Source: a bacterium
GTDB lineage: Bacteria; Zhuqueibacterota; QNDG01; JAFGCO01
Assembly (NCBI GenBank): GCA_016932575.1
Contig: JAFGCO010000001.1
Coordinates: 1 to 64,000, forward strand
DNA: 64,000 nucleotides
Direction of reading: 5' to 3'
In this document: one piece after another, positions 3,130 to 41,105 of the stretch
Position numbering within the stretch: position 1 is the stretch's first letter
How the letters are laid out: every line of letters starts with the position of its first letter
Position numbers and translations under genes: made by a program
The notes under the pieces: model-generated
The model's database searches: none
What the model was told of the DNA's origin: nothing
What the model saw: the letters and a program-made list of their open reading frames with translations, nothing else

Positions 3130-6090
3130 CTACCGATCAGGAAATTCTATTTTCTCCTGCGTTTGAAAATAGCTCTCCGACGGACCCAGATAACAGGATT
3201 TTAAACCGCCGGTATTCACAACAATTTTCTGCAGTACGATGCCGGGATCAACCATCCAGTATTTCAGCACATGCTTTCCTGGCTTTTCGATTTTATGCAT
3301 TGAAGATAGAATTTTGATGCTGTTGCCGACTGCCCGATTCCACCATTCAGGATACTTCCAGTCCGGGACAGTTTCGTTTTCATGAATATTGATAATCTGA
3401 GGCTCTTCATCGTCAAAGGAAATCGCGTATCGCAATCCACCCTTATGCAGATAATCCTGCGTGGGAGATACGAACACTTGCACTTCGACATCACCGGTCG
3501 AAAACAGGTGCATGTTATACTCGAGGCAGGGACTGTCACCTCCCGGCTTTCGGCTTTTCGCGGTCACCGGCATGCAGGTCATCCCCGAAAGGGTTCTGCC
3601 CAAATCAGGGATACACTGCCATTCGATCCCGGACGTTTCCACTGCCCGTGTAAAATGTTCGGCTTCCATAGAAACCACACCGTTGCCTTCAACAAATCCC
3701 CGGATTTGATCCAGGCCGGGAAATTTCGGATTATGTACCACGACATGAACTTTAACCTGAGATCTGTCGGGGCCTTTTACGATAAAAGAGGTTCTGGAGG
3801 AACCGGCCGGTACCTTATGCCAGTCCACATCGATCCACACTCGCTGCTCCTTATCAATCTGGCCGGCTTTTTGATCGATAATCAGCCATGGTGCTTTCGA
3901 TCGAATCGTATATCCGAAAGAAATCTGACCGCGGTTAAAAATTTCAATATAATGGGCCTTTTGCTGATATTTATTAAACGCCGGCAATTGCGCCCGATTA
4001 TCCGCCCCCGGCCACCAGTTATCCGATCCTTCGACAGCCACACCCATATCCGCCCCTGGAAGCGGTTGAACGGTTTCAAGTTTTGGGAGGACGTCTTTAT
4101 CCGGCTGCTGCCAGTAAGTATACCCGATATGCGTCTGATCCATCATGTGATTCCATTTTCCACCGGCAAGCACATGATTATAATAATGCGTAATGACAGA
4201 GTCCTTTTCAAACAACGCTTTGGCTTTCTCCGCCATGTCATTGGCCGCCACCCTTCCCTGTTTGGCATAAAGCCTGTTTTTTCCGACGGTGACGTAAAGC
4301 TCATGTAAATTGGCGCAGGCACTCACAGGATGCAAAACCAGCTGATAGAAGGCGTCCCGGTAAACATCCGGCATTTTCAAAACCATCTGATTTGCTTTTT
4401 CAGCCAGTTGATTGTATTCGCGAACCACGGTTTCCGCTTCCCGGTACTGGATGAGGCTGTAGGTATCCGGCGCCAGCATTTCGGGAGTTCTGCGTCCGTT
4501 GAATTTGGTGTATTGAGTCAAAATCTCGGCAATTTCAGAAGCATGTCCGGCACCGAATTGCTGCTGTGCCCAGAGCCGCGTATATTCCGGAAGACGCTCT
4601 GCAGGCCAGGCTTCCGGATTCCAGGCATAATCCAGAAAGAACGAGATGGGAAATTCCATGGGTTTTAAATCTCCCACATTCACAATCCAGATCCGGTCCA
4701 CACCATGCCGGTAAGTTAAATGCATCTGCTCCCAGATTCGGGGAATGGGATTGGTATTCAGCCACTTGTAGCTTCTCGGACCACCCACAAAATCAAAATG
4801 ATAGTACATGCCGTACCCCCCCGATCGTGGAGAGGAATCCGATTCGGGAAGTCTTCGCACATTGCCCCAGTTGTCATCGCAGAGCAGCAGTGTCACATCT
4901 TCCGGCACCCTCATACCCCTGTTATAATAATCCTGCACTTCCTTGTACAGCGCCCAGACCTGGGGGATAATTTTAATATCCTTGCCCGTCACATTTTTCA
5001 GGATATCCCGTTGATCTTTCACGATTTTTTCCAAAAGAGCAATATTGGTGCTGTCGCTCATGGCCATGTCCCCGTCACCCCGCATGGCCAGTGTCACGAC
5101 GCTTTCATAATTGTTCATGCGCCGAATACCCTGGGTCCAGAACTGGCGCAGCACCTCTGCATTGGTTTCATAGTTCCAGTCGCCCTCTCCGGATGCCCGC
5201 CATTCTGCATGGGCGCGCATCATGGGTTCATGATGAGAAGTGCTCATTACAATCCCCAGCTCATCAGCCAGTCGCGGATTTTCCGGATCATCCGCATTAA
5301 AAGCAGCCCACCACATGGCCGGCCATAAAAAATTGCCTTTCAGCCTGAGAATCAGCTCAAACACCTTTTCATAAAACTTTGAATTAAAACCCCCGTATCT
5401 TTCCACCACCCACCGGCCCAAAGCCGGTTCTTCGTCATTCAGAAAGACACCCCGGTATTTAACCCTGGGCGGACCCTGAATATACCGCCCCGGAATAATA
5501 TACAGATTCTCCTGACGCATCGCCGGCACATCTGCCCACCAGTTCCAGGGAGATACACCAATTTGGGCAGAAAGATCGAACATCCCGTAAATGGTGCCTC
5601 GTTTATCACTCCCCGCAATCACAAGCGCCCGATCAACATGGGGCACCGGATTCTCCACAACCTGAATCAGCGTGGATTCCCATTGCCCCTCAACGTCATC
5701 CACCCGAATCTTTCCGGTCTGTATCAGTTGATCGATAATCGGGCTTCTTCCGATCGTGCCGATGAAAACGACAGATTCGATATCGTGTATATTATCAGTA
5801 TAAATCATCGGTTTTGCTCCGGTGACCTTTTCAATATCGGCCTGAAGATATCCTGCAACCCGGAGTACGCCGGGATAGTCCTGTTTGCTTACTGCCAGAG
5901 GAGCCGCACACCCCCGATATGAAAGGGAAAAGCAATCGTCCTTATGCACCTGAGTGACATACAAAATCCCTGTCAGCTCATTTCCCAAAATATCGGCAGA
6001 ACTTATGGTGTTCAATAAAAAGATAATAACAATGCAGGTTTTCATTAAACAGGATATTGCCGGAACAGGACTATTTTTAAGCATGATCAT
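3130..6090 (-). CDS. GH115 family xylan alpha-1,2-glucuronidase
   Basis: 986 aa with a signal peptide ending near SSADILG. Family GH115 enzymes remove (4-O-methyl)-glucuronic acid side chains from xylan. Recognisable blocks include GTIYGMFDLSAQIGVSPW (165-182), KYRGVFLNDEEPALGRW (211-227), KGNFLWPAMWWAAF (251-264), and STSHHEPMMRAHAEW. The C-terminal third (from about residue 690) matches the beta-sandwich C-terminal region of full-length members. The ATG at 6090 has GAGG upstream at good spacing. There is no FlgD-like sorting tail, so a periplasmic location is likely. No SusC/SusD pair or xylanase is adjacent; a secreted GH12 lies 3.4 kb upstream on the same strand. Confidence 0.93.
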   Translation of the reverse strand: MIMLKNSPVPAISCLMKTCIVIIFLLNTISSADILGNELTGILYVTQVHKDDCFSLSYRGCAAPLAVSKQDYPGVLRVAGYLQADIEKVTGAKPMIYTDNIHDIESVVFIGTIGRSPIIDQLIQTGKIRVDDVEGQWESTLIQVVENPVPHVDRALVIAGSDKRGTIYGMFDLSAQIGVSPWNWWADVPAMRQENLYIIPGRYIQGPPRVKYRGVFLNDEEPALGRWVVERYGGFNSKFYEKVFELILRLKGNFLWPAMWWAAFNADDPENPRLADELGIVMSTSHHEPMMRAHAEWRASGEGDWNYETNAEVLRQFWTQGIRRMNNYESVVTLAMRGDGDMAMSDSTNIALLEKIVKDQRDILKNVTGKDIKIIPQVWALYKEVQDYYNRGMRVPEDVTLLLCDDNWGNVRRLPESDSSPRSGGYGMYYHFDFVGGPRSYKWLNTNPIPRIWEQMHLTYRHGVDRIWIVNVGDLKPMEFPISFFLDYAWNPEAWPAERLPEYTRLWAQQQFGAGHASEIAEILTQYTKFNGRRTPEMLAPDTYSLIQYREAETVVREYNQLAEKANQMVLKMPDVYRDAFYQLVLHPVSACANLHELYVTVGKNRLYAKQGRVAANDMAEKAKALFEKDSVITHYYNHVLAGGKWNHMMDQTHIGYTYWQQPDKDVLPKLETVQPLPGADMGVAVEGSDNWWPGADNRAQLPAFNKYQQKAHYIEIFNRGQISFGYTIRSKAPWLIIDQKAGQIDKEQRVWIDVDWHKVPAGSSRTSFIVKGPDRSQVKVHVVVHNPKFPGLDQIRGFVEGNGVVSMEAEHFTRAVETSGIEWQCIPDLGRTLSGMTCMPVTAKSRKPGGDSPCLEYNMHLFSTGDVEVQVFVSPTQDYLHKGGLRYAISFDDEEPQIINIHENETVPDWKYPEWWNRAVGNSIKILSSMHKIEKPGKHVLKYWMVDPGIVLQKIVVNTGGLKSCYLGPSESYFQTQEKIEFPDR

Positions 6091-6323
6091 ATCCTCATTT
6101 ATTGATAAAAGGTTTAAAATAATTTAACAATGCAAATATAAACGACATTTTTCAGTATTTAAAGTGAATCACTGTGAATTAATCGTTATATAAGACTAAA
6201 AAGGTTTTTTCGGTGAATTGTATATTTTATCATGTCCCGTCAGTGAAAAGTGTGTCATAAACGGAAGAGATCCTTAACGATAATGGCTCTGCCTGATGAT
6301 GAAAGGCTGTGTTCTTCGCTGTA

Positions 6324-7370
6324 CTAAAAACATCTTCCGGTTTTTTTCTTCAGGCACTCCGGCTCTCGGCATTTATAGCATATTTCATTCGGCAGCTGAT
6401 CGTCTTCAAAGAAAAACCGGATGTTTTCCAAAGTAATCCTGGCAATATTGCTTAAGGCTTCATGAGTAAAAAATCCCTGATGCGAGGTGATCAGCACATT
6501 GGGAAAAGTGGTTAACCGGGCAAGCACATCATCATCGATCACCTCCTGAGAAAAATCCTCGAAAAAATACTCGGTTTCTTCCTCATATACATCTAATCCG
6601 GCGGCCCCGATTTTTCTTTCTTTTAATCCCGCAATTAAGTCTTTGGTATTGATTAACTTACCTCGCCCTGTATTGATCACCATCACACCGGTTTTCATTC
6701 TGGCAATGGATTCTGCGTTAATCATGTGAACATTATCCGGCGTCAGCGGACAATGCAATGTAATAATATCCGATTGTTCGTATAGCTTTTTCAGATCAAC
6801 ATACAACATTTTTTTTTCGCAGGCGTACTGACTGTCAGGATAAAGATCGTATGCCAGAATCCGCATGCCGAATCCGGTTAATATATCAATAACACACCTG
6901 CCGATTTTTCCGGTACCAATGACACCCGCGGTCTTGTCATGCATGTCAAAACCCAGCAGCCCGTTGATATTAAAATTATTGTCCCGTGTTCGATAGTAGG
7001 CCTTATGGGTCTTTCTGTTGAGCGTAAGCATCAACGCAACCGCATGTTCGGCCACAGCATAAGGCGAATAGGCCGGAACGCGAACCACATGTATTTTTTT
7101 ATATACGGCATGTAAGTTCACATTATTGTAACCGGCGCTTCGGAGAGCAATTAATTTCACACCGTTTCGTATTAATTCGCCGGCAATTTCCCGGGTAATG
7201 TTGTCGTTGACAAACACGCAGGCCACATCATATCCATTGGTTAAGGATACATTTTCCATGGTCAGGTGGCTTGTAATATATTTAACCGGATATTTATAGG
7301 ACTCGTTGATTCGTTCAAAAAATTCACGGTCGTAAGGTTTTGTATCAAAAAAAATGATTTTGGGTACCAT
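6324..7370 (-). CDS. D-2-hydroxyacid dehydrogenase (D-lactate dehydrogenase-like)
   Basis: 348 aa. NAD-dependent 2-hydroxyacid dehydrogenase of the LdhA type, expected to reduce pyruvate to D-lactate. The nucleotide fold starts at GVIGTGKIGR (149-158). Catalytic positions are seen as Arg236 in NTGRG, Glu263-265 in VYEEE and His297 in SHQGF; RSAGYNNVN (78-86) is the substrate-loop signature of D-LDHs. The protein ends in an unusual tail with four cysteines, C-x2-C-x4-C-x7-C (C331, C334, C339, C347), beyond the usual LdhA end. AAGGA precedes the ATG. It stands alone, about 340 bp from the next gene. Other 2-hydroxyacid substrates are possible. Confidence 0.88.
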   Translation of the reverse strand: MVPKIIFFDTKPYDREFFERINESYKYPVKYITSHLTMENVSLTNGYDVACVFVNDNITREIAGELIRNGVKLIALRSAGYNNVNLHAVYKKIHVVRVPAYSPYAVAEHAVALMLTLNRKTHKAYYRTRDNNFNINGLLGFDMHDKTAGVIGTGKIGRCVIDILTGFGMRILAYDLYPDSQYACEKKMLYVDLKKLYEQSDIITLHCPLTPDNVHMINAESIARMKTGVMVINTGRGKLINTKDLIAGLKERKIGAAGLDVYEEETEYFFEDFSQEVIDDDVLARLTTFPNVLITSHQGFFTHEALSNIARITLENIRFFFEDDQLPNEICYKCREPECLKKKTGRCF

Positions 7371-7710
7371 GGTTCATCCTTAGCCAATGACATATTGGAT
7401 GACAGGAAACTGATTTTATTGTTATATTATGAAACGCTTCAAAACCCGGCCTTGTTTCATAATGTGACTCATTTACAAATAATTCTTTATCCGGTGCCTG
7501 ACATAAAAGTGAGGTGCCTTTTCGAAAGCATGTATAATATTTGAATAATCATTTGCATAATCCGAAAATTCGGATATCCACAGAATTCACCCCTTATATG
7601 CCGACACTTCAACATTCACATTCGATGCATCACCCGTCCTGTACAGGTTTTCTTTCCATTCTTGCATGGACAAACCGGATTTAATTCAACCGGAGACTCA
7701 GACATTGCTT
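7371..7710. other. Intergenic stretch, no gene seen
   Basis: The stretch lies between the D-LDH start and the amidohydrolase stop. It is AT-rich next to D-LDH, where its promoter must lie, but no motif is strong enough to call. A short hairpin, TCCGA-AAAT-TCGGA, lies near 7560-7574. Short frames here are not convincing as genes, and I see no tRNA. Confidence 0.4.
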
Positions 7711-9081
7711 TCAGGAATCATCTGTTTTTTCACTTTCCCGAAACCATTTCGGCTGATCAATATTATGGTCTCCATAAAACTTTTTCAGTCTGGCCCGGTT
7801 TTTCCCGCCCGGAATTAATCCCAAAAACATCATCGCATTTCGCCCCAGAAAATCATTCAGATCGTCATCTGTGTAAAAGCCGGATTTTTGCATCACCCGG
7901 ATGTATTGCTTCATAAATGATCTGAAATTTTTTAACCTCCGGAGCACATGCCAGTCGCTGCCATAGAGAATTTTTTTTCTGATCCGGTCCAGACCATATG
8001 AATAGTCCCTCTGTATATTTTTATAGGCTTTAATAAAATCCGTCCGATGACCATGCGTAACGACATCATGATGTGCGACATCCGTATAGAGATTTTTATA
8101 ATCCAACATCATCCGGCATATTGTTTTCATCCAGTTCTGCCTGTGACCGTAATTACGCCCGGAAACCGGATTCCAGCCAAAATGAGCCAGATTCAGCCTC
8201 AGCCCTTTATATTCCTCCAATACAGGTTTCCATAGCTCAGCCGCTCCAAAATGGGAGCTGGCATTCGGGTACGCCTCAATGCCATTCATCATGCAATGTG
8301 CTGTAATCGGAACCCCGTTTTTTTCGCAGTATGCATAAAGTTCGCATAATACTTGATCATACAGCCGTCCATCAAATAAAAAAGACGTTTTGTCGTTACG
8401 TACAGCGACTCGTTGATGATAAAGAGCAGCCTTTTCTTTACCGTTGCCGATTGGTTTGTATCCGAGGGAATTGTATAATTTAATGCCGATAAATCCTTTT
8501 TTCTCGATGGCGGTTTTCACCAGTTCTAACGAACTCACGGTCTCTTTTTGTCCGTCCGGATTATTCAAACCATTTCGAAAGCTCAATTCCCTGGCCGGAT
8601 CAAAGGGGACAAATGCATGGAACTTTCCTCCTTGGCTGACAATGACATCTCGATACATAATATCGATCTGTTTGTCAACAGACAGATCGATCGTATTTTT
8701 AAACCAGTATTCAAAATCAAGAACCAGCGGCACAAACAAATCCACATTGTCCCATGTCTCCATAAGATCCGCGGCATTGTGACGGACAGTTTGGGTTAAT
8801 GCACTTTCCCATGATTTCATATCCTGCCCCATATACCATCCGAACGTACAAAGCAGCATAGAATAATACCATCCGATTTTACCGCCTCCCAACTGCCGGG
8901 TAACACACCGGTCCCGCATGCGTTCGGTCAGATAATGGAACATGTGGGGCCCAAAAAAATTGATAATATATTCCAGATCGCAGGGACGTTTTCTTTCAAT
9001 CCGGCGGGAAATCAGATATCCCTCCATCGGAATATCCAGCGCATTGAAAAGATGGGTATGCATATCAATAATCGGTGCCAT
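7711..9081 (-). CDS. Amidohydrolase-family (TIM-barrel) metal-dependent hydrolase
   Basis: 456 aa. The metal-binding HxH is at the N-terminus (IIDMHTHLF, H8 and H10). Later barrel ligands are suggested by ITAHCM, LAHFGW and LYGSDWHV (Asp376), the pattern of the amidohydrolase_2 (COG2159-like) group. These enzymes hydrolyse or decarboxylate cyclic or aromatic acids; I cannot name the substrate. No signal peptide is seen, so it is cytoplasmic. GGGAGGG precedes the ATG. It lies between D-LDH and a broken acetyltransferase gene on the same strand, which gives no pathway clue. Confidence 0.75.
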   Translation of the reverse strand: MAPIIDMHTHLFNALDIPMEGYLISRRIERKRPCDLEYIINFFGPHMFHYLTERMRDRCVTRQLGGGKIGWYYSMLLCTFGWYMGQDMKSWESALTQTVRHNAADLMETWDNVDLFVPLVLDFEYWFKNTIDLSVDKQIDIMYRDVIVSQGGKFHAFVPFDPARELSFRNGLNNPDGQKETVSSLELVKTAIEKKGFIGIKLYNSLGYKPIGNGKEKAALYHQRVAVRNDKTSFLFDGRLYDQVLCELYAYCEKNGVPITAHCMMNGIEAYPNASSHFGAAELWKPVLEEYKGLRLNLAHFGWNPVSGRNYGHRQNWMKTICRMMLDYKNLYTDVAHHDVVTHGHRTDFIKAYKNIQRDYSYGLDRIRKKILYGSDWHVLRRLKNFRSFMKQYIRVMQKSGFYTDDDLNDFLGRNAMMFLGLIPGGKNRARLKKFYGDHNIDQPKWFRESEKTDDS

Positions 9082-31299: not shown

Positions 31300-32625
31300 T
31301 CACTTTCTGTTCTTCCGTTTTCCCCACCAGTAGGCCAGCCGTTCCCGGATGATTTTTTCCGCTCCAAAATTTTTGGGACGGTAGTAAATCATGTCTTTTA
31401 ATTTGTCCGGAAGATACGTTTGATCCACAAATCCGCCGGGGTAGTCATGCGCATATTTATAATCCTTTCCGTAATCCATGTCCTTCATCAGTCCGGTCGG
31501 TGCATTACGCAAATGGAGCGGTACCGGTTCCTGCCCAAATTCAGGTAAGTCAGCCATGGCCTGGTCAATGGCCAGATAAGCCGCGTTGCTCTTGGGCGCG
31601 CTTGCCAGATAGGTGGCTGCCTGCGAAAGAATAATGCGCGCCTCCGGCATCCCGATGGCGTGAACTGCCTGAAAAGCCGCATTTGCCATGACGAGCCCCT
31701 GAGGGTCTGCATTGCCGATATCTTCGGAGGCCAGAATAATTAATCGCCGGGCGATAAACAGGGGATCTTCTCCGGCATTCAGCATACGGGCCAGATAATG
31801 CACAGCCGCATCCGGATCAGATCCGCGAACGGACTTGATGAATGCGGAAATTGTGTCATAATGCTGATCGCCTGCTTTATCGTATCGAAAGATTTTTTTC
31901 TGAAGCGCTTCCTGTAAAACGGCTTTTGTTATTTTTAGCCGGTTCTTTTTCACGGGTGCCAGTTGGATGCATATTTCCAATGTGGTCAATACCATGCGTG
32001 CGTCGCCACCGGCCATTTTTACCAAGATCGACTGGATATTTTTATCAAATCCAACCTGGATACTTTTAAGAAGAATATCTTCAGATAATGCGCGTTCCAT
32101 CAGTTGAATTAAATCATTTTCCTGCAGCGGATTCAATGTGAGTACACGGCATCTGGATAAAAGCGGTGCGATGACTTCAAACGAGGGATTTTCCGTGGTT
32201 GCCCCGATAAATGTGATGGTCCCATCCTCCACCGAGTGAAGCAATGCATCCTGCTGGGCCTTGTTGAACCTGTGAATTTCATCGATGAACAGGATCGTGG
32301 ATTTGGCAGTCCGAAGACGCTGTTTTGAAGCTTGCTCAATGATCAGACGAATGTCTTTCACCCCTGCTGTGACAGCGCTGATTGCATGAAAGAAAGCATC
32401 GCTTTCATTCGCAAGGATCCGGGCGAGCGTGGTTTTGCCTACACCGGGCGGCCCCCAGAAAATCAGGGAGAAAAACCGTCCACGCTCAACCATTGTTCGT
32501 AATATCCGTCCCGGACCGGTCAGATGCTGCTGGCCTGCCAGCTGATCCAGAATCTTCGGCCGCATGCGTTCAGCCAGAGGTGCCAGCTCAGGATTTTCCG
32601 GGATTTCCTTGTCAAATAAATCCAT
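31300..32625 (-). CDS. rarA: Replication-associated recombination protein A (AAA+ ATPase)
   Basis: 441 aa. RarA/MgsA family AAA+ protein that acts at stalled replication forks. The N-terminal PLAERMRPKILDQLAGQQHL is the family signature. Walker A is GPPGVGKTT (58-66), Walker B is ILFIDEIHRFNKAQQD, and sensor sequence FIGATTENPSFE follows. The C-terminal tetramerisation region includes DYGKDYKYAHDYPGGFVDQ-type sequence. The ATG at 32625 has no strong ribosome site. It is divergent from the secreted-protein gene upstream. Confidence 0.95.
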   Translation of the reverse strand: MDLFDKEIPENPELAPLAERMRPKILDQLAGQQHLTGPGRILRTMVERGRFFSLIFWGPPGVGKTTLARILANESDAFFHAISAVTAGVKDIRLIIEQASKQRLRTAKSTILFIDEIHRFNKAQQDALLHSVEDGTITFIGATTENPSFEVIAPLLSRCRVLTLNPLQENDLIQLMERALSEDILLKSIQVGFDKNIQSILVKMAGGDARMVLTTLEICIQLAPVKKNRLKITKAVLQEALQKKIFRYDKAGDQHYDTISAFIKSVRGSDPDAAVHYLARMLNAGEDPLFIARRLIILASEDIGNADPQGLVMANAAFQAVHAIGMPEARIILSQAATYLASAPKSNAAYLAIDQAMADLPEFGQEPVPLHLRNAPTGLMKDMDYGKDYKYAHDYPGGFVDQTYLPDKLKDMIYYRPKNFGAEKIIRERLAYWWGKRKNRK

Positions 32626-32955: not shown

Positions 32956-34098
32956 ATGAAAAAAGATAATGTGAAAAATCTTGATAAAAAACTCTTGGGT
33001 TACTCTCTTGCCGCTGGTGCGATTTTGGCCGGGGGCAGATCCTTCGCTGCGGTTCAGCATTCGGATCCGCCGGACATAAGCATTTATGCGTGGGGCGTAT
33101 TTCCTGTGGCATTCCCTGTAGGTACGGAGTATTTTTATTTGTACAGTTCATTTTTTTCTTCCTATTATAGCGCATTGGCCTACCCTTATAATGGTCTGGC
33201 CAATGCGGGGACGTTTCCTTACGTAAAAGCACTGAATACCGGACAACAGGTCGGACCGGGTCTCAATTTTGGTAACATTCCATTTCTCGGTTCCACTTCT
33301 GCCGGAAATTTTCCCAATGCCGGTCAAAAATGTATCGGTGTTCTGTATAATGACGTCGATGGCGTCCATTATGGCTGGATTCGTGTCTCGGTCACGCTGC
33401 CTCCCAGTCCCGGCTTCGCCAAGATTACCATACATGATTGGGCGTATGAAGATACGGCAAACCGTCCCGTTCTCGCAGGCACCCAGACTTCCTTAAACGT
33501 CCAGCTGAATCAATTTACAGCATGTCTCGAACCTGACGGCGTCAATCTGAACTGGGCCACGCAGAGTGAAATCGACAATCTGGGATTTGTTCTGGAACGC
33601 AGGGAATTGGATAACGCTGGAAATGTTATCAACGATTGGTCGGAAATCGCTTCATATCTGACCCATGTCGATCTTCAGGGTCAGGGCAATACCTCGGAAG
33701 AAACCCTGTACAGCTTTACGGATCAGAACATGGCTGAAGGCGCGATTTATGAATATCAGCTGATCGACGTGAATGTTCAGGGCAATCGAAATACAAGCCT
33801 GAGTTTGAATATCAAAATACAGGGAATCGTACCGGATGAAATGACGCTTGGTCAAAACTATCCCAATCCGTTTAATCCGAGAACCACAATCAAATTCGGC
33901 ATTCCGGAAGCAGATCGGGTCACGCTTTCTGTTTACAACCTCAAAGGTCAGACAATCGACCATCTGATCAATGAGCATTTGCCTGCAGGGTATCACGAGA
34001 TCCCGTGGGATGGCTCTCCTTTCCCGGCGGGTGTCTATTTTTATGAACTCCGGGCCGGAGACCGGCGGGAGGTCCGCAAATTGAATCTGATAAAGTAA
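32956..34098 (+). CDS. Secreted protein with C-terminal FlgD-like sorting domain
   Basis: 380 aa from the ATG at 32956, with GGGAGA 7 nt upstream. A signal-like segment, SLAAGAILAGGRSFA, ends near residue 32. The N-terminal half (about 35-180) has a beta-sandwich pattern, including CIGVLYNDVDGVHYGWIRV, as in low-homology secreted proteins of unknown role. Residues about 185-290 resemble an Ig/fibronectin-like unit (LNWATQSEIDNLGFVLER) common just before sorting tails. The tail opens with QNYPNPFNPRTTIKFG and ends VRKLNLIK. It has its own promoter and terminator, so it is monocistronic and probably well expressed. Confidence 0.7.
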   Translation: MKKDNVKNLDKKLLGYSLAAGAILAGGRSFAAVQHSDPPDISIYAWGVFPVAFPVGTEYFYLYSSFFSSYYSALAYPYNGLANAGTFPYVKALNTGQQVGPGLNFGNIPFLGSTSAGNFPNAGQKCIGVLYNDVDGVHYGWIRVSVTLPPSPGFAKITIHDWAYEDTANRPVLAGTQTSLNVQLNQFTACLEPDGVNLNWATQSEIDNLGFVLERRELDNAGNVINDWSEIASYLTHVDLQGQGNTSEETLYSFTDQNMAEGAIYEYQLIDVNVQGNRNTSLSLNIKIQGIVPDEMTLGQNYPNPFNPRTTIKFGIPEADRVTLSVYNLKGQTIDHLINEHLPAGYHEIPWDGSPFPAGVYFYELRAGDRREVRKLNLIK

Positions 34099-34132
34099 TG
34101 CTTGATTCAATACGGGACATTTTTAAAATAAC

Positions 34133-34161
34133 ATCCCCCTTCACTCAAGGGGGATTTTTTT
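34133..34161 (+). terminator. Rho-independent terminator
   Basis: ATCCCCCTT (34133-34141), loop CACTC, AAGGGGGAT (34147-34155), then a run of T residues. It follows the stop of the secreted protein gene by 35 bp. Confidence 0.9.
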
Positions 34162-34275
34162 ATGCTTTGGATATTTGATGATATTTTGTATAATTAAAAT
34201 CAGAATCAACAACTATTTTTGAATCATATATGGCTATTATCGAATCTTCATACAAATAATGTCAGGAAAATATGT

Positions 34276-34509
34276 ATGACAGATCATGCGGATCAGGAAA
34301 AGAATCCTTCTCCGGATACCAGGCCCCGGACAAAACATTATACCTCATACGAGGATTTCTACAATGACATCCCCGAAGAAGGATCCCTTGGGATCCTGGC
34401 CATGGGATTTCAGGGGGTGCTGGCCTGGCGGAGAAAAAAAGAAGAGCTGAAAGCCGCGCGGGATAAACAGAATTTTTCATTCGAAAAATCGGAGGAAAAT
34501 CATGGCTGA
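34276..34509 (+). CDS. Small 77-aa protein of unknown function, translationally coupled to the phosphodiesterase
   Basis: From the ATG at 34276 (AGGA 8 nt upstream) the product is MTDHADQEK...ENHG. Its polar N-terminus is followed by SYEDFYNDIPEEGSLGILA and a short hydrophobic stretch, LGILAMGFQGVLAW, then RRKKEE. The stretch is too short for a sure transmembrane helix. The stop overlaps the next gene's start by 8 bp, a sign of coupling. I do not recognise a family; its position suggests a partner or regulator of the downstream phosphodiesterase/TPR protein. Confidence 0.6.
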   Translation: MTDHADQEKNPSPDTRPRTKHYTSYEDFYNDIPEEGSLGILAMGFQGVLAWRRKKEELKAARDKQNFSFEKSEENHG

Positions 34510-36523
34510 ACGACCGGCCAAAAGAGTACTCCTGATTGGCTGGGATGCCGCAGACTGGAAAATCATCAATCCCCTGCTTGACGCGGGTGAAATGCCGGCC
34601 CTGGAATCTCTTGTCAACAATGGGGTGATGGGGAATCTGGCCACCCTCGATCCGCCATTATCCCCCATGATGTGGACCTCCATTGCCACAGGCATGCATG
34701 CGGACAAACACGGGATTCAAGGATTCATTGAACCCGCGCCGCAGGCTCAGGGCGTGCGTCCGGTCATGACCACTTCCAGAAAGGTCAAGGCCCTCTGGAA
34801 TATTCTCATGCAAAACGGACTGAAAACCCATGTGGTCGGCTGGTGGCCCGGGCATCCTGCCGAACCGATCAACGGGATCTATATTTCCAATCATTATCAA
34901 CGGGCGTACGCACCCATTGACAAACCCTGGCACCTTCATCCGGGAACCATTCATCCCAAAGAAATGGAATCTGTTTTTGATCAGCTTCGAATTCATCCTG
35001 CGGAACTCACAGGCGCTCATATTATGCCCTTTGTCCCGGAACTAAAAAAAATCGATCAGGAAAAAGAGAAAAAAATAGAGATGTTGGGTAAAATCATTGC
35101 CGATGCAGCAACGATTCATAATGCTGCAACCTATATCATGGAAAACGAGCCCTGGGATTTCATGGCTGTCTATTATGATGCCATCGATCATTTCTGCCAT
35201 GGATTTATCAATTTCCATCCGCCAAAGATGGAATTTGTTCCCAACGACCAGTATGAGCTTTATCAGGGTGTTGTCAACGGCGGATATCGTTTTCATGATA
35301 TGATGCTGGCGAGACTCATTGAACTCGCAGGTCCTGATACGACCATTGTCCTGGTCTCGGACCACGGATTTCACTCGGATCATCTGCGTCCAACCGGCAT
35401 CCGGAAAATTCCGGCCGGTCCCGCCGACCAGCATCGGTCATACGGCGTCATTTGTATGAAAGGCCGGAATATTCAGAAGGATGAACGGATTTACGGTGCC
35501 ACACTGCTGGATATCACTCCTACCATTCTTTCACTGTATGGATTGCCGACCGGTCGTGACATGGACGGGCATACGCTGGTACAGGCCTTTAAAAAACCAT
35601 TCGTTCCGGAAATGATCGACAGCTGGGAAAAAGTGGAAGGCGATGCCGGTATGCATCCTGTGGATTTACAGGAAGATCCCTGGGCGGCGCAGGAGGCCAT
35701 GCAGCAACTGATTGCGCTTGGCTATATTGAAAAACCGGATAAGAACAAACAAAAGGCCATTACAAAGACAACGAATGAATCCCGGTTTTATCTGGCGCGT
35801 GTCTACATGAATAAATCCATGTTTCAGGAAGCCCTGCCCATCCTGGAAAAACTTTATAAAAAAAACCCGGATGAAATACGATTTGGTCTTCAGCTGATAC
35901 GATGTCTGCTGGAATTAGGCGCGCCTGAGGCCAGCCAGAAAATACTGGATGAAATAAAAGTTCTTGCGGAAAAAAACCGGAAGAAAAAAGAAAAACAAAC
36001 GGATTATACGCCTCATCTTGATCTGCTTCAGGGAAGAATTTTTCTCGAGAAAAACAGGCCCATGCAGGCTCTGGAATCTCTTGAAAAAGCGGAAAAAATG
36101 CTTTCCAGTCATCCGGGTCTTTATTTGCAGATCGGTTCTGTTTATTCAAAACTGAAATTCTGGAACAAGGCGATTGATACATATCAAAAGGTGCTTTCTT
36201 TGGATCCGGACAATGCGCAAGCGCATCATGGACTGGCCCGTGCATATTTAAGGCAGCGCCGTTATGTCGAAGCCGCGGAAGAAGCGTTGGAAGCCATCGG
36301 ACTATTATATCATTACCCTCATGCGCATTTCAACCTTGGCCTGGCTCTTTTAAGAATCAAACGCTTCGAGCGCGCCGCAGAAGCATTTGAGGTCTGCCTG
36401 AGAATGGCACCTGACATGAATCGGGCGCGACGGCTCCTCATCCACCTGTATGAAAAACAATTGAACAACTCAGAAAAAGCGGAAGCCCATCGAAAAATGC
36501 TGGAGGATTCCGAATCCGCTTAA
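34502..36523 (+). CDS. Alkaline-phosphatase-superfamily phosphodiesterase with C-terminal TPR repeats
   Basis: 673 aa. Residues 1-380 are a type I phosphodiesterase/nucleotide pyrophosphatase-like domain: metal ligand Asp15 in IGWDAADW, nucleophile region SPMMWTSIATG (Thr59), YYDAIDHFCHG and VSDHGFHSDH with Asp/His metal ligands. Residues about 410-665 form several TPR repeats (for example AIDTYQKVLSLDPDNAQA) for protein contacts. No signal peptide is seen, so it is probably cytoplasmic, unusual for a superfamily with many exported members. It is followed at 27 bp by a sulfotransferase-like gene and then an ABC exporter, and preceded by the coupled 77-aa gene. The substrate is unknown. Confidence 0.85.
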   Translation: MAERPAKRVLLIGWDAADWKIINPLLDAGEMPALESLVNNGVMGNLATLDPPLSPMMWTSIATGMHADKHGIQGFIEPAPQAQGVRPVMTTSRKVKALWNILMQNGLKTHVVGWWPGHPAEPINGIYISNHYQRAYAPIDKPWHLHPGTIHPKEMESVFDQLRIHPAELTGAHIMPFVPELKKIDQEKEKKIEMLGKIIADAATIHNAATYIMENEPWDFMAVYYDAIDHFCHGFINFHPPKMEFVPNDQYELYQGVVNGGYRFHDMMLARLIELAGPDTTIVLVSDHGFHSDHLRPTGIRKIPAGPADQHRSYGVICMKGRNIQKDERIYGATLLDITPTILSLYGLPTGRDMDGHTLVQAFKKPFVPEMIDSWEKVEGDAGMHPVDLQEDPWAAQEAMQQLIALGYIEKPDKNKQKAITKTTNESRFYLARVYMNKSMFQEALPILEKLYKKNPDEIRFGLQLIRCLLELGAPEASQKILDEIKVLAEKNRKKKEKQTDYTPHLDLLQGRIFLEKNRPMQALESLEKAEKMLSSHPGLYLQIGSVYSKLKFWNKAIDTYQKVLSLDPDNAQAHHGLARAYLRQRRYVEAAEEALEAIGLLYHYPHAHFNLGLALLRIKRFERAAEAFEVCLRMAPDMNRARRLLIHLYEKQLNNSEKAEAHRKMLEDSESA

Positions 36524-36550
36524 AACTTTTCTGAAACAGGAGAATCTAAA

Positions 36551-37111
36551 TTGATCACCATTGTCTCTGGATTGCCGCGTTCAGGCACATCACTCATGAT
36601 GCAAATGCTGGAAAAAGGCGGTATGGAAACCCTGAAAGATAATTCCCGTATACCAGACGTGAACAATCCGCGCGGTTATTATGAATATAATAAAGCAAAA
36701 TCCCTTCAAAAGGACAATACATGGCTCAAGGACGCGGAAGGCAGGTGTGTTAAAATCATCGCCCCATTGCTCTGTTTTCTTCCGGTCCAATATGAATATA
36801 ATATTCTCTTCATGACAAGAAATATGGATGAGATGATCCAGTCGCAAACAAAAATGCTTCACAACATGCACCAGCAGGGGGCAGCGCTTGAATCTTCTGT
36901 ACTTAAGAAGACATTTCAGAAACAAACAGATAAGGTCCTCCTCCTTCTGTCAAATTTTAAAAATGTCAGGCTCCAAAAATTTTCCTACAATGAAATGATC
37001 AATAATCCGACTGCCAATGCACTGTTGGTCAATCAATTTTTAAAATCCTCTCTTTCTGTCAATGCAATGGCTTCCGCAATAGATCAATCGTTATACCACG
37101 AACGGCTCTGA
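36551..37111 (+). CDS. Short sulfotransferase-like P-loop protein (TTG start)
   Basis: 186 aa. It opens with ITIVSGLPRSGTSLMMQML, the 5'-phosphosulfate-binding loop of PAPS-dependent sulfotransferases, and NILFMTRNMDEMIQSQ fits the second, 3'-phosphate-binding element. The protein is shorter than typical sulfotransferases (250 aa or more). The start is TTG with AGGAG 8 nt upstream. It lies 27 bp behind the phosphodiesterase-TPR gene and 7 bp ahead of the ABC ATPase, so it is part of the same operon. Sulfation of an exported molecule is possible but unproven. Confidence 0.7.
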   Translation: MITIVSGLPRSGTSLMMQMLEKGGMETLKDNSRIPDVNNPRGYYEYNKAKSLQKDNTWLKDAEGRCVKIIAPLLCFLPVQYEYNILFMTRNMDEMIQSQTKMLHNMHQQGAALESSVLKKTFQKQTDKVLLLLSNFKNVRLQKFSYNEMINNPTANALLVNQFLKSSLSVNAMASAIDQSLYHERL

Positions 37112-37118
37112 GATCGTT

Positions 37119-37826
37119 ATGAAGCATTTATTAAAAATTCAAAATTGTTACCGGATTTATTTTAAGGGGACCATTCAGATTCAGGCCGTCCGGAACCTCT
37201 CCTTTTCGATGCGCTCAGGTGAACTCGTCAGTATTATAGGACGATCCGGATCCGGAAAATCAACCCTGTTGAATTTAATCGGAGGACTGGACACACCAAA
37301 TCAGGGTCATATTTGGATTCAGGATAAAGATCTCACCAGAATGAACAGAACAGAATTGGCTCGGCATCGTCGATATATGGTGGGGATGATTTTTCAATCA
37401 TTCAATTTAATTCCCTCACGCACGGCTTTGGAAAATGTTTCACTGGCGCTTGCTTTCGGTGGAAAGGGACGATCCGAAAGAGAACAAACTGCCATCAGGC
37501 TTCTTGATTCTGTCGGGCTCAAGGATCGCATGAACCACAGTCCCGGAGAACTTTCCGGCGGAGAATGCCAGCGTGTGGCCATTGCAAGGGCTCTGGCAAA
37601 TCGGCCCTTGCTTCTTCTGGCTGATGAGCCTACCGGTAATCTGGACAGTAAAACAGCGGAAGACATTCTCGATCTGCTCCGGAAATTAAACCGAAAAGGT
37701 GTATCCATCCTTATGGTGACCCATGATCAACTGGGTGCTGAAAGGATCTCTCATCGAAGGTTGCAATTAATGGACGGAACAATCATCAAAGAAGAACAGC
37801 TCCGGAGTCTTCATGAAACCGGATGA
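37119..37826 (+). CDS. MacB/LolD-type ABC transporter ATP-binding protein
   Basis: 235 aa. Walker A GRSGSGKST (41-49), Q-loop region GMIFQSFNLIPSRTALENV, signature LSGGECQRVAIARAL, Walker B LLLLADEPTGNLDSKT and the H-loop region MVTHD mark the MacB/LolD/FtsE class, which drives export or extraction across the inner membrane. It starts 7 bp after the sulfotransferase-like gene, and its end overlaps the permease gene by 14 bp. Confidence 0.93.
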   Translation: MKHLLKIQNCYRIYFKGTIQIQAVRNLSFSMRSGELVSIIGRSGSGKSTLLNLIGGLDTPNQGHIWIQDKDLTRMNRTELARHRRYMVGMIFQSFNLIPSRTALENVSLALAFGGKGRSEREQTAIRLLDSVGLKDRMNHSPGELSGGECQRVAIARALANRPLLLLADEPTGNLDSKTAEDILDLLRKLNRKGVSILMVTHDQLGAERISHRRLQLMDGTIIKEEQLRSLHETG

Positions 37827-39234
37827 ATTAACACGTATAGCATTGGGCAATCTTTGGCGGACAAAATTGCGCACTTTTTTAACCACGCTTGGTGTGATTA
37901 TCGGAATCGGCGCCCTGGTCTCTATGGTTTCTTTTGGCATAGGCATGCAAAAAAATGTTACTGCTGCATTTTATGAAAACGACTTGTTTACCAGCATGCT
38001 GGTTTCACCGCAGCAAATCGATGTAAATAAAGCGATATCCGGTGATATGGAAGGCATGGTTAACGCTTTATACGAGCCACCGCCTCCACTGGTTGATTCC
38101 ACACTTTCTTGCTTCCAGACTTTCAGCGGTGTCGTAATTTCCTTCCCGGAAATCCGATTTCCGGTAAAAATCCGATTTGCAGGCAATGAAACCCGGATAA
38201 ATATCCGGGCCATGCCCGCTTCCATGGGTCAGTACAAACCGTTTAACGATCTGCTGGCAGGCAGTTTTTTTAAGAGCGACTCCCAGAACACCATTATCCT
38301 GAGCCAGAATATTTTAAAGGATCTTAATGTCAAATTGAAAAACAGGCATATTCACCACCTGACTTTGGAGGATTCGTTAAAAAGCACTGTTTTAATTGAA
38401 GCGGACTCGATGATTGGCGATTCTCTGGATGTCATTACGTCCGTTGTCGATGTGACAAAAATGACCGGATTTCCTGGATTTTCCATAAAGGGCCACAGAA
38501 GAATGCTGTTTAAGGAGATAATCAATCCTTTTCAGATAGGGGGAATACAGAAAGCAGGCAGCGGCTTTGAAGCTCCCAGCATGATATCCGGCGCCATCAT
38601 CCCCATTCAGACAGCAGAGATGTTGCCAAGAGTGGGATTCAACAATATCTGGGATGTGCTTGGTGGCAAACATGATCATGAAGGGTATGGCTCAGCGATC
38701 GTCCGGGTAAAACACATCGATCATGTCAAAGCCGTCCAGGACAGCATTGAGTCGATGGGTTACTCGGTGTTTTCAATCATGGATCAGCTGAGTGAAATGA
38801 AAAAAGGCTTTTTAATCTTTGATATGGGCCTCGGAGCCATTGGAACAATTGCTTTAATTGTAGCGGCTCTGGGAATTATCAATACCATGGTTATGTCGAT
38901 TCTTGAGCGAACCCGTGAAATTGGCATTATGAAGGCCATTGGAGGCAGCGAGGGGGAAATTCGCACGATTTTCTTTGTAGAAGCCGGTATGATTGGTTTA
39001 ATTGGCGGAATTTTCGGACTACTGTTAGGATGGCTTGTAACAAAAATCGCTAATGCTGTAGCGAATATGATTTTTCTGAAAGAAATGGATTTTTCTGTGA
39101 ATTTCTTTCACATTCCATTCTGGCTTATTTTAAGCGCTATCGCATTCTCTATCGGAATCAGCCTGCTGGCGGGAATCTACCCTGCTGCAAGGGCAGCCGC
39201 TGTAAATCCTGTGGAAGCATTGCGGCATGACTAA
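37813..39234 (+). CDS. MacB-like ABC transporter permease (FtsX domain)
   Basis: 473 aa. An N-terminal helix (LRTFLTTLGVIIGIGALVSM) and a large periplasmic MacB-type domain (about 45-320) are followed by the FtsX domain with three helices. The conserved stretch SILERTREIGIMKAIGGSEG and the end YPAARAAAVNPVEALRHD are diagnostic. It pairs with the overlapping ATPase. Its substrate may be linked to the upstream phosphodiesterase/sulfotransferase genes. Its stop overlaps the convergent histidine kinase by 4 bp. Confidence 0.9.
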   Translation: MKPDELTRIALGNLWRTKLRTFLTTLGVIIGIGALVSMVSFGIGMQKNVTAAFYENDLFTSMLVSPQQIDVNKAISGDMEGMVNALYEPPPPLVDSTLSCFQTFSGVVISFPEIRFPVKIRFAGNETRINIRAMPASMGQYKPFNDLLAGSFFKSDSQNTIILSQNILKDLNVKLKNRHIHHLTLEDSLKSTVLIEADSMIGDSLDVITSVVDVTKMTGFPGFSIKGHRRMLFKEIINPFQIGGIQKAGSGFEAPSMISGAIIPIQTAEMLPRVGFNNIWDVLGGKHDHEGYGSAIVRVKHIDHVKAVQDSIESMGYSVFSIMDQLSEMKKGFLIFDMGLGAIGTIALIVAALGIINTMVMSILERTREIGIMKAIGGSEGEIRTIFFVEAGMIGLIGGIFGLLLGWLVTKIANAVANMIFLKEMDFSVNFFHIPFWLILSAIAFSIGISLLAGIYPAARAAAVNPVEALRHD

Positions 39235-41105
39235 TAAATCAATACTGTCGCATTATCCATCGATTCTGAACATCCCGGTGAAATTTCTGTAATGTCTTCC
39301 AGTAAATATCGGATTTTCCTGTTAAGACTTTCCGGTGAATAAGGCTTTTGCAAAAAGTGGGTATCCGGATGCAGTAGCAGTTGCTCGCTGACCATATTAT
39401 CTGTAAATCCTGAAGCAAACAGTACTTTCATGTCCGTGCGTTCGTTCATTAAAATTTTCGCCAGATCCTGACCGCCAACAAACGGAATGATCAGATCAGA
39501 GATAAGCAAATCGATTGAAGGCTCCCATTCACGGCTGAGCGTAAGCGCCTGATGACCGTCTTTGGCCTGTATTACCCGGTATCCCTGATCTTCCAAAAGT
39601 CTGGCTGTTGTGTGACGAATGCGATCATCATTCTCTACCAACAGAATGGTTTCTGTATAGATAATGGCAGAAGACACCACCGGCTGTATTGAATCAACCG
39701 CTTCAGAATCTGCCATTTTCGGGAAATAGATATGAAACGTTGTCCCCTGACCTGCTTCACTGGTGACAAAAATATCCCCTTTACTCTGTTTGACAATACC
39801 ATACACCGTCGACAATCCAAGGCCCGTACCCTTGCCTTTTTCTTTTGTTGTGAAGAAGGGTTCAAAAATCTTTGAACGTGTCTCCTCATCCATGCCGGAC
39901 CCGGTGTCTCTGCATGTAAGCATTACATATTCTCCCGGGGGTATGGACAGACCCTGATCCTGGCAACAGACCGGCTTTAAATAAGCCATCTTCGTCGCAA
40001 GAATGCATTGGCCGCCATCTGGCATGGCATCTCTGGCATTCACCACCAGATTCAGTACAATTTGTTCCAGCTGAACTGGGTCTGCTACAATCAGACCGAG
40101 TTTTTCAGAAGGTTCGATTTTTAATTCTACTTTGTCGCCTACCAGATACTGCAGCATTTTATCAACATCACAAACCACATGATTTAAATTGATACACTCC
40201 GGAGACAGCACCTGTTTTCGGCTAAATGCTAAAAGCTGCTTGACCAAATTGGTGGCTTTCTTCCCAATACGGCTGATCATCTCGACATCTTCCCGGAAGG
40301 AATTGTTTGAAGGCAGTGAATGAAGCATCATTTCTGAGATGCCCAAAATGCCGGCCAGGATATTATTAAAATCGTGAGCAATACCTCCGGCAAGCTGACC
40401 GACCACCGCCAGCCGCTCCGACTGTAACATTTTCTGGGTTCGTTCCTGCACCTGCTGTTCCAGATTATTTGCGTGGGTTTTGATTTGCTGATGAGCGGAC
40501 TGAAGCCGGCGACGGGAATGCCACTGATTTTTTTGATGAATAAAATTAAAACGGGATCCTGAAAAAGAGATTATCATGGTCGCAAGCAGAAAAAAATTGT
40601 TGTTGACAAAAATAGGAATCTCATGAGCCTGTACAACCCAGACATTGGGCAAAAAATAAAAAAACCAGATCAATCCAAATGCCGCCCCCAATTCAATAAT
40701 GGTCAGGGGCATCATAATACCAAAAGCAAGTACAGGTAAATTAATGCCTGCATAATAAGGATCAATCGGCCCCTGATCCAGATGACACATCAGTGTGATA
40801 CCGCCACTGACAGTTAACAGTTGGACAACTGCCAATGTATAGGTATATTTAATGCCTCTGACAGATCGTGAAATGAAATAAATGCCAATGGAAATGACTG
40901 TTACAGAAAGTCTAAGAATTAAAAATGTACCAAGCCATTCCGGTTTTAAAATCATATCTAAAATTGAAAAAAGGGGAATAATAATGGCACTTAATAAAGC
41001 GCCGACAGCAACAGCCTGATTCACAATACGCAGTCTGACACGATCGAATTCTTCTGATAAGAGATGCGGAGTAAATACTGGTTTTAGCTGTTCGAAAATA
41101 CCCAT
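39231..41105 (-). CDS. Hybrid sensor histidine kinase with C-terminal receiver domain
   Basis: 624 aa. Six or so membrane helices (about 28-185) form the sensor, then a coiled stretch leads to the HisKA domain with phospho-His244 in QLAGGIAHDFNNILA. The HATPase domain has the N-box NLVVNARDAMPDGG and the G-boxes GTGLGLSTVYGIV. A receiver domain from about 485 carries phospho-Asp537 in LLISDLIIP and Lys in LQKPYSP. No DNA-binding output is fused or adjacent, so its partner lies elsewhere. It converges on the ABC permease with a 4-bp overlap of stops. Confidence 0.92.
   Translation of the reverse strand: MGIFEQLKPVFTPHLLSEEFDRVRLRIVNQAVAVGALLSAIIIPLFSILDMILKPEWLGTFLILRLSVTVISIGIYFISRSVRGIKYTYTLAVVQLLTVSGGITLMCHLDQGPIDPYYAGINLPVLAFGIMMPLTIIELGAAFGLIWFFYFLPNVWVVQAHEIPIFVNNNFFLLATMIISFSGSRFNFIHQKNQWHSRRRLQSAHQQIKTHANNLEQQVQERTQKMLQSERLAVVGQLAGGIAHDFNNILAGILGISEMMLHSLPSNNSFREDVEMISRIGKKATNLVKQLLAFSRKQVLSPECINLNHVVCDVDKMLQYLVGDKVELKIEPSEKLGLIVADPVQLEQIVLNLVVNARDAMPDGGQCILATKMAYLKPVCCQDQGLSIPPGEYVMLTCRDTGSGMDEETRSKIFEPFFTTKEKGKGTGLGLSTVYGIVKQSKGDIFVTSEAGQGTTFHIYFPKMADSEAVDSIQPVVSSAIIYTETILLVENDDRIRHTTARLLEDQGYRVIQAKDGHQALTLSREWEPSIDLLISDLIIPFVGGQDLAKILMNERTDMKVLFASGFTDNMVSEQLLLHPDTHFLQKPYSPESLNRKIRYLLEDITEISPGCSESMDNATVLIY

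Follow-up and report, generated by a model that had tools for sequence, protein, structure and literature searches.

The 64,000-nt stretch of DNA analysed here (the window; positions 1 to 64,000 of contig JAFGCO010000001.1, assembly GCA_016932575.1, from a bacterium of the KSB1 phylum) raises the question of what a 77-residue protein, a cytoplasmic phosphodiesterase with tetratricopeptide repeats (PDE-TPR) and a small sulfotransferase, encoded one after another, do together. The initial annotation of this locus had grouped the three with a MacB-like ATP-binding cassette (ABC) exporter and proposed a possible undescribed system that would make or modify, and then export, a sulfated or phosphodiester-linked molecule. 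The five plus-strand open reading frames (ORFs) are arranged in the order and at the coordinates given there, with spacings of -8, +27, +7 and -14 nt, all below 30 bp, and the first three recur together in other genomes. The ABC genes do not, and the row as first drawn omits one gene at its start and includes two too many at its end. What is conserved beside the enzyme is a family of secreted proteins, named YGW in the present analysis, whose C-terminal tail is matched by the 77-residue protein, a finding that speaks against a small-molecule cargo. The module thus comprises four genes at 32956-37111, encoding YGW, the 77-residue protein, PDE-TPR and the sulfotransferase (Table 1).

Co-occurrence of YGW and PDE-TPR across phyla

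Relatives of PDE-TPR were collected in one scan with three PDE-TPR query sequences, which yielded at least 80 loci. The 80 listed loci cover about ten phyla, with members in KSB1, Planctomycetes, Verrucomicrobia, Acidobacteria, Proteobacteria, Cyanobacteria, Flavobacteriales, Marinimicrobia, Chloroflexi and others. An all-against-all comparison of the genes in these loci ranked the PDE/sulfotransferase family first and YGW second (44 loci), with the next family reaching 8. YGW was present somewhere in 24 of 29 PDE-bearing genomes, a count that includes non-adjacent cases. Of 297 Planctomycetia genomes drawn, 25 had PDE-TPR and 31 had YGW; the two occurred together in 23 genomes, PDE-TPR only in 2, YGW only in 8 and neither in 264 (Fisher test, 1.9e-25, relatedness ignored), and a YGW gene lay on the same strand within 1.5 kb upstream of 31 of the 38 PDE copies. 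Amongst 119 genomes around that of the window, YGW was detected only in the window's own genome (G000) and in one relative (G002), the sole two with a close PDE-TPR. A distant PDE-TPR-like match (1.7e-92; G106:C112 10319-11560) was seen in a genome outside the window's phylum, where no YGW gene was detected.

Recurrence was also observed close to home. The 77-residue protein and PDE-TPR are encoded together once more in the window's genome, at a paralogous locus (L013; G000:C37:9000-25000, 5489-8893 on the minus strand), a second copy that has a small tail protein, a PDE-TPR and a T9SS-tailed YGW, the latter encoded downstream of the PDE, and no sulfotransferase. All three of the small protein, PDE-TPR and sulfotransferase recur in another KSB1-phylum genome (L017/L018). 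Altogether, these observations show that YGW and PDE-TPR, the latter with or without its sulfotransferase, are linked genes found in each other's company in many phyla, and that the genes of the cassette are functionally linked is, taken alone, highly likely.

YGW, the secreted partner

The YGW protein of the window starts with the N-terminal signal region LdkkLLGYSLAAGAILAG (LDKKLLGYSLAAGAILAG), continues into a core predicted to be all-beta that contains HYGW and ends in HYGWIRVSVT...WAYEDTANRPVLAG, and is completed by a fibronectin type III (FnIII)-like domain and a C-terminus identified as the Por_Secre_tail of the type IX secretion system (T9SS; TIGR04183, 1.4e-8, above the cut-off). Apart from such C-terminal tails, no Pfam or NCBIfam domain was matched by the family. 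The C-terminus of most YGW proteins is a PEP-CTERM-like tail, EPGSLGLLALGAxGLxxWRRRR, and 29 of 46 matched the Pfam PEP-CTERM model. A fold search with the first predicted YGW model matched only the FnIII/T9SS part, and no Foldseek match of the isolated core fell below E 0.29. Direct superposition of the predicted core on haem-binding HmuY-type structures (VIA-align Z 6.5, rmsd 3.5, 119 aligned, for 3h8t; Z 5.7 for 6eu8) offers a weak lead. Given the terminator-like hairpin that follows the YGW gene, YGW and the enzyme genes are probably carried on separate transcripts.

At least five tandem YGW proteins with nearly identical tails precede one PDE in Candidatus Halobeggiatoa (L061 1812-7827), and a Flavobacteriales locus (L044 8923-11544, 13650-14240, 14378-16825) has two PDE copies and three YGW genes. 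Very large PDE-adjacent proteins, one of more than 2,700 residues, grouped with YGW in L028 (1-8349, minus strand), L022 (12113-15775) and L025 (11759-14182), and the one in L028 contains a YGW-like domain (8e-29).

The small protein as a stand-alone tail

The 77-residue protein carries the motif IPEEGSLGILAMGFQGVLAWRRKK. It had no Pfam match, and neither a signal nor a hydrophobic stretch was seen at its N-terminus; the hydropathy peak is the tail itself, past which the protein runs on for about 24 residues. Thirteen such stand-alone proteins of 50-88 residues were identified just before a PDE gene, with the YGW-tail motif at their centre (the window, L013, L018, L019, L021, L022, L025, L028, L030, L038, L041 and two in L044). 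A YGW profile from which the small proteins had been left out detected most of them, several at about 1e-8, and as judged from these matches the 77-residue protein is homologous to the tail that YGW proteins elsewhere carry in cis at their C-terminus. Positions G36, G39, L41, A42, G44, G47 and W51 are invariant in 12 small proteins, and L38 and R52 nearly so. In the reverse comparison, a profile of the small proteins gave YGW tails a median score of 23 versus about 3 for six PEP-CTERM tails of L023, with genuine controls being few. Those six belong to tandem, classical, non-YGW PEP-CTERM proteins located directly upstream of a PDE-TPR-sulfotransferase gene (L023 269-8524) in a metagenome-assembled genome (MAG) without a detected exosortase.

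The small protein appears to be tied to its enzyme. The number of small proteins equals the PDE-TPR-adjacent count in ten genomes (two in the window's genome and in G125, otherwise one), and in these genomes the motif was found on no other protein. Furthermore, in seven of 11 loci checked, the window included, the small ORF runs exactly 8 nt into the PDE gene, and this recurrent overlap argues for a small protein that is translationally coupled to PDE-TPR and forms a complex with it. A further tail-like sequence (PAEPTSLGLLAMGHTGIADRQRR) was noticed apart from the PDE in L027 (8163-8327, minus strand), a locus of an Acidobacteria MAG where exosortase was not detected.

Tyrosine sulfation of the small protein itself was considered, as the window protein has an acidic HYTSYEDFYND stretch, and was rejected on the grounds that no tyrosine column is conserved among the 12 small proteins.

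Exosortase and the form of the tail

No exosortase (PF09721) was found in the window's genome, where a completeness of 94.5% makes a miss possible and unlikely, nor in G002. Exosortase was scored across 37 tested genomes, and the resulting table was put to a Fisher test. The enzyme was absent in eight of the nine scored genomes with a stand-alone tail (exception, L041; L030 was omitted, its match being below the cut-off) and present in 17 of the 18 genomes with a cis tail (exception, L027). In the PDE tree, the stand-alone form makes up one clade with one reversal (L020/L039, cis tail plus exosortase), that is, two changes. The correlation therefore stands on one to two evolutionary events, and the association of a missing exosortase with a stand-alone tail is suggestive, not proven. 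Many independent detachments of the tail were rejected as an account of this pattern in view of the same tree; an independent-pairs test had too few pairs.

The tail has been kept in several phyla without a detected exosortase, and so must serve another purpose. Cleavage by exosortase was likewise discarded as the purpose of the small protein, since the genome lacks the enzyme and the protein lacks both the PEP motif and a signal. The PEP motif occurs in none of the 12 small proteins; that of the window has IPEEG in its place, and the window protein returned no Pfam PEP-CTERM match.

Conservation of the enzyme domains

The enzyme had been annotated as a member of the alkaline-phosphatase (AP) superfamily with TPRs, and this reading holds: a PF01663 phosphodiesterase domain (1.8e-27) is followed by the repeats. 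Across 39 sequences, its metal ligands D15, D229, H233, D287, H288 and H311 do not vary. S54, also invariant, falls by hand alignment at the nucleophile position of nucleotide pyrophosphatases/phosphodiesterases (NPPs), ten residues ahead of TG as in those enzymes; Thr59 was dismissed as the nucleophile because its column varies amongst T, N and S. By sequence, the nearest protein of known structure is phosphonoacetate hydrolase (3szy/3t02, E 1.4e-6). Two clusters of other PF01663-type phosphodiesterases, distinct from PDE-TPR, are present in the same genome (G000:C39 43430-49699 and C23 15160-21792).

In 57 of the 80 listed loci, PDE-TPR ends in a fused sulfotransferase domain, and in five a separate nearby gene encodes this domain; 8 loci could not be judged, so that it is fused or adjacent in 62 of the 72 judgeable ones. 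The window protein scored just above the cut-off for Sulfotransfer_3 (4.2e-6). Its description as a P-loop protein of the type using 3'-phosphoadenosine-5'-phosphosulfate (PAPS) is well borne out by 40 homologous domains, in which the 5'-phosphosulfate-binding (5'-PSB) loop GLPRSGTS and Arg90/Ser98 of the 3'-phosphate-binding (3'-PB) element are invariant, as are D30, R33, N39, E45 and K68. Amongst solved structures, the family profile matches SULT1A1 and tyrosylprotein sulfotransferases (TPST). On these alignments, the catalytic residues of both enzyme domains are conserved. One fused sulfotransferase domain in L044 has no P-loop, and an intact separate sulfotransferase gene is found nearby.

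The initial annotation had made its proposal depend on PAPS synthesis, and the corresponding genes are present in one cluster of the window's genome: ATP sulfurylase (sat), APS kinase (cysC) and a cysQ-like gene of the inositol-phosphatase family. In this cluster (L099; G000:C18:76000-88000) sat, an SLC13-type transporter gene, cysC and the cysQ-like gene adjoin UbiA-like and Wzz-type polysaccharide genes.

A proposed maturation system and its alternatives

It is plausible, if not quite probable, that the four genes form a maturation system dedicated to a single family of exported proteins, in which the enzyme would modify YGW before export under guidance of the tail. The cytoplasmic enzyme would recognize the GxLGxLAxGxxGxxxWR tail, perhaps through its TPRs. 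In exosortase-bearing hosts the tail would be offered in cis on the YGW precursor and could later be removed by exosortase; in hosts without exosortase it would act as a separate small adaptor or enzyme subunit. The PDE domain, with its putative Ser nucleophile and two-metal site, and the PAPS-dependent sulfotransferase domain would then modify or license YGW, the simplest chemistry being sulfation plus the transfer or hydrolysis of a phosphoryl or phosphodiester group. Modified YGW would be exported by Sec and sorted by exosortase or by T9SS, the latter probably being the exit in the window, at its second locus and at the Flavobacteriales and Marinimicrobia loci. It is quite possible that this amounts to an undescribed cross-phylum system in which a C-terminal tag, either in cis and removed by exosortase or in trans as a coupled adaptor, directs a cytoplasmic PDE-TPR-sulfotransferase to exported proteins. 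That the sulfate is placed on the YGW polypeptide itself is possible and rather doubtful.

Some observations weigh against such a maturation system. Because PDE-linked members were the source of the YGW profile, the co-occurrence counts may be too high, and relatedness is ignored in the Fisher value. L023 and L091 carry a PDE with neither YGW nor exosortase. Ten judgeable loci have no sulfotransferase, two to four of these being broken or partial. L041 combines a small protein with an exosortase and L027 a cis tail with none found, and the stand-alone form is a single PDE clade. Finally, binding of the tail by the TPRs is a step that we infer.

Amongst the alternatives, the one that fares best, while still unlikely, is that the tail, in cis or in trans, serves for membrane recruitment or anchoring. 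The small protein would dock PDE-TPR, with its sulfotransferase where present, at the inner membrane, and the enzyme would act on a lipid or soluble nucleotide, not on YGW. The tail does show the hydrophobic-plus-basic layout typical of sorting tails, the small protein is coupled to the PDE with one copy per enzyme, and AP-superfamily enzymes of the PF01663 family often act on lipids or nucleotides. However, the hydrophobic stretch is short (Kyte-Doolittle peaks of 0.83-1.46 in a 19-residue window and at most 9-17 consecutive residues without a charge), and an anchor leaves unexplained both the presence of the tail within YGW elsewhere and the co-occurrence with YGW.

A second alternative, closest to the idea of the initial annotation and distinctly unlikely in our view, is that the enzyme builds or sulfates a surface glycan, with YGW as its glycan-binding surface partner and a shared surface structure as the reason for the linkage. 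Sulfotransferases commonly act on glycans, the PAPS genes of this genome adjoin a Wzz-type polysaccharide gene, and PEP-CTERM proteins have been tied to exopolysaccharide and floc formation (PMC9850573). Yet no glycosyltransferase or polysaccharide gene was amongst the recurrent neighbour families of the 80 listed loci, and the trans tail peptide is left without a role.

It is very unlikely that PDE-TPR is a regulator of secretion with the tail peptide as its input. The precedent is the T9SS response regulator PorX, a cytoplasmic AP-superfamily phosphodiesterase linked to the control of protein secretion (PMC11320123) and having the same D/T/D/H/D/H/H metal-site layout, and the window YGW bears a T9SS tail. 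Unlike PorX, PDE-TPR has TPRs and a sulfotransferase, the latter fusion being unexplained by a regulatory role; no receiver domain was detected in it by Pfam/NCBIfam scans, and it is distributed with exosortase-type as well as T9SS-type tails and secretion. A chance operon of genes without shared function, a description that does suit the ABC half of the row first claimed, is hardly credible for the cassette given its recurrence across phyla, the fusion, the 1:1 copy number and the co-occurrence.

Relation to known systems

Proteases or membrane sorting enzymes are the readers of known C-terminal sorting tags (LPXTG, PEP-CTERM, GlyGly-CTERM). In the present case, genomes in which no exosortase is detectable conserve a PEP-CTERM-like tail as a protein of its own, paired one to one with a cytoplasmic enzyme. 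Should the tail recruit this enzyme, a second, cytoplasmic message would be borne by some "PEP-CTERM" tails. The maturation system, if true, would constitute a new PAPS-involving modification of exported proteins in Planctomycetes, Verrucomicrobia, Cyanobacteria, Proteobacteria, Bacteroidetes and KSB1, with cultured hosts that include Bythopirellula polymerisocia and Thiohalocapsa halophila. The novelty is at the level of the system only, the component domains being already known.

With the PEP-CTERM/exosortase system (EpsH, PF09721), the locus shares exported proteins that have a C-terminal hydrophobic stretch and a basic cluster. Every PEP-CTERM protein is stated to bear a signal peptide and to occur in a species with an exosortase (PMC3237569). 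In contrast, the window tail is on a separate, signal-less protein without the PEP motif, in a genome without a detectable exosortase, so that three defining features (exosortase, signal peptide on the tagged protein and PEP motif) are missing, and its putative partner is a cytoplasmic enzyme. In literature searches that had subscription journals outside their scope, no description was found of PEP-CTERM/exosortase paired with a sulfotransferase, a phosphodiesterase or TPRs.

The RaxX-RaxST-RaxAB system of Xanthomonas (PMC6637879) resembles the locus in that a sulfotransferase is encoded beside a short protein and, as far as the window goes, an ABC transporter. The Rax system has no PDE-TPR and relies on an acceptor tyrosine, whereas no tyrosine is conserved in the 77-residue family; nor are the window ABC genes a cognate exporter, being an ancestral MacB/FtsX-type pair outside the module. 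As for the enzymes, phosphonoacetate hydrolase and the NPPs (PF01663) belong to the same catalytic domain family as PDE-TPR, which differs from them in its TPR extension, sulfotransferase fusion, Ser at the nucleophile position and gene partners. SULT1A1 and TPST share the GLPRSGTS 5'-PSB and the Arg...Ser spacing of the 3'-PB; the window sulfotransferase has about 186 residues versus about 270-400 in the corresponding PDB chains, and its family is usually fused behind PDE-TPR.

Boundaries of the module and neighbouring genes

Table 1. Positions in the window of the cassette genes and the features flanking them
Feature	Coordinates	Strand	Remarks
RarA/MgsA-type AAA ATPase	31300-32625	-	left flank of cassette; adjoins the ABC pair in relatives lacking the cassette
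Secreted YGW protein	32956-34098	+	380 aa; presumed substrate; in module
Terminator-like hairpin 3' of YGW gene	34133-34162	+	9-bp stem, then T-run
Stand-alone tail protein	34276-34509	+	77 aa; in module
PDE-TPR	34502-36523	+	673 aa; phosphodiesterase domain and TPRs; in module
Sulfotransferase	36551-37111	+	186 aa; PAPS-type; TTG start after AGGAG; in module
ABC ATPase, LolD/MacB type	37119-37826	+	235 aa; ancestral neighbour, outside module
MacB/FtsX-type permease	37813-39234	+	473 aa; ancestral neighbour, outside module

Pfam and NCBIfam scans identified the last two genes of the originally proposed row as an ABC ATPase and a MacB_PCD/FtsX permease. This pair is an ancestral neighbour and not a member of the module, because its orthologues (50-62% identity) are found in several genomes of the same phylum without a detected PDE-TPR, where they are located beside rarA. 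The two adjoin directly in the four relatives with a readable left flank (L111, L112, L113 and L115, the ATPase ORF of L115 having been missed by a simple gene caller), and in longer relative stretches the pair is also near ROK kinase, LptD-like or Ddl orthologues of genes at 26-32.6 kb of the window. In the window, the four-gene cassette lies exactly between rarA and the ABC ATPase gene, and its insertion at that point is the simplest reading. In G002, a relative that has both the cassette enzyme and the ABC pair, the two are on separate contigs. The pair was also absent from the recurrent neighbour families of the 80 listed PDE-TPR loci, and a partnership with a MacB exporter was thus ruled out by synteny and phylogenetic distribution.

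A defence or phage origin was considered and set aside, as no PADLOC or PHROG match was obtained other than to the TPRs. Beyond the ABC permease, and convergent with it, the translation at 39231-41105 on the minus strand indicates a hybrid histidine kinase with a response-regulator-like C-terminus.

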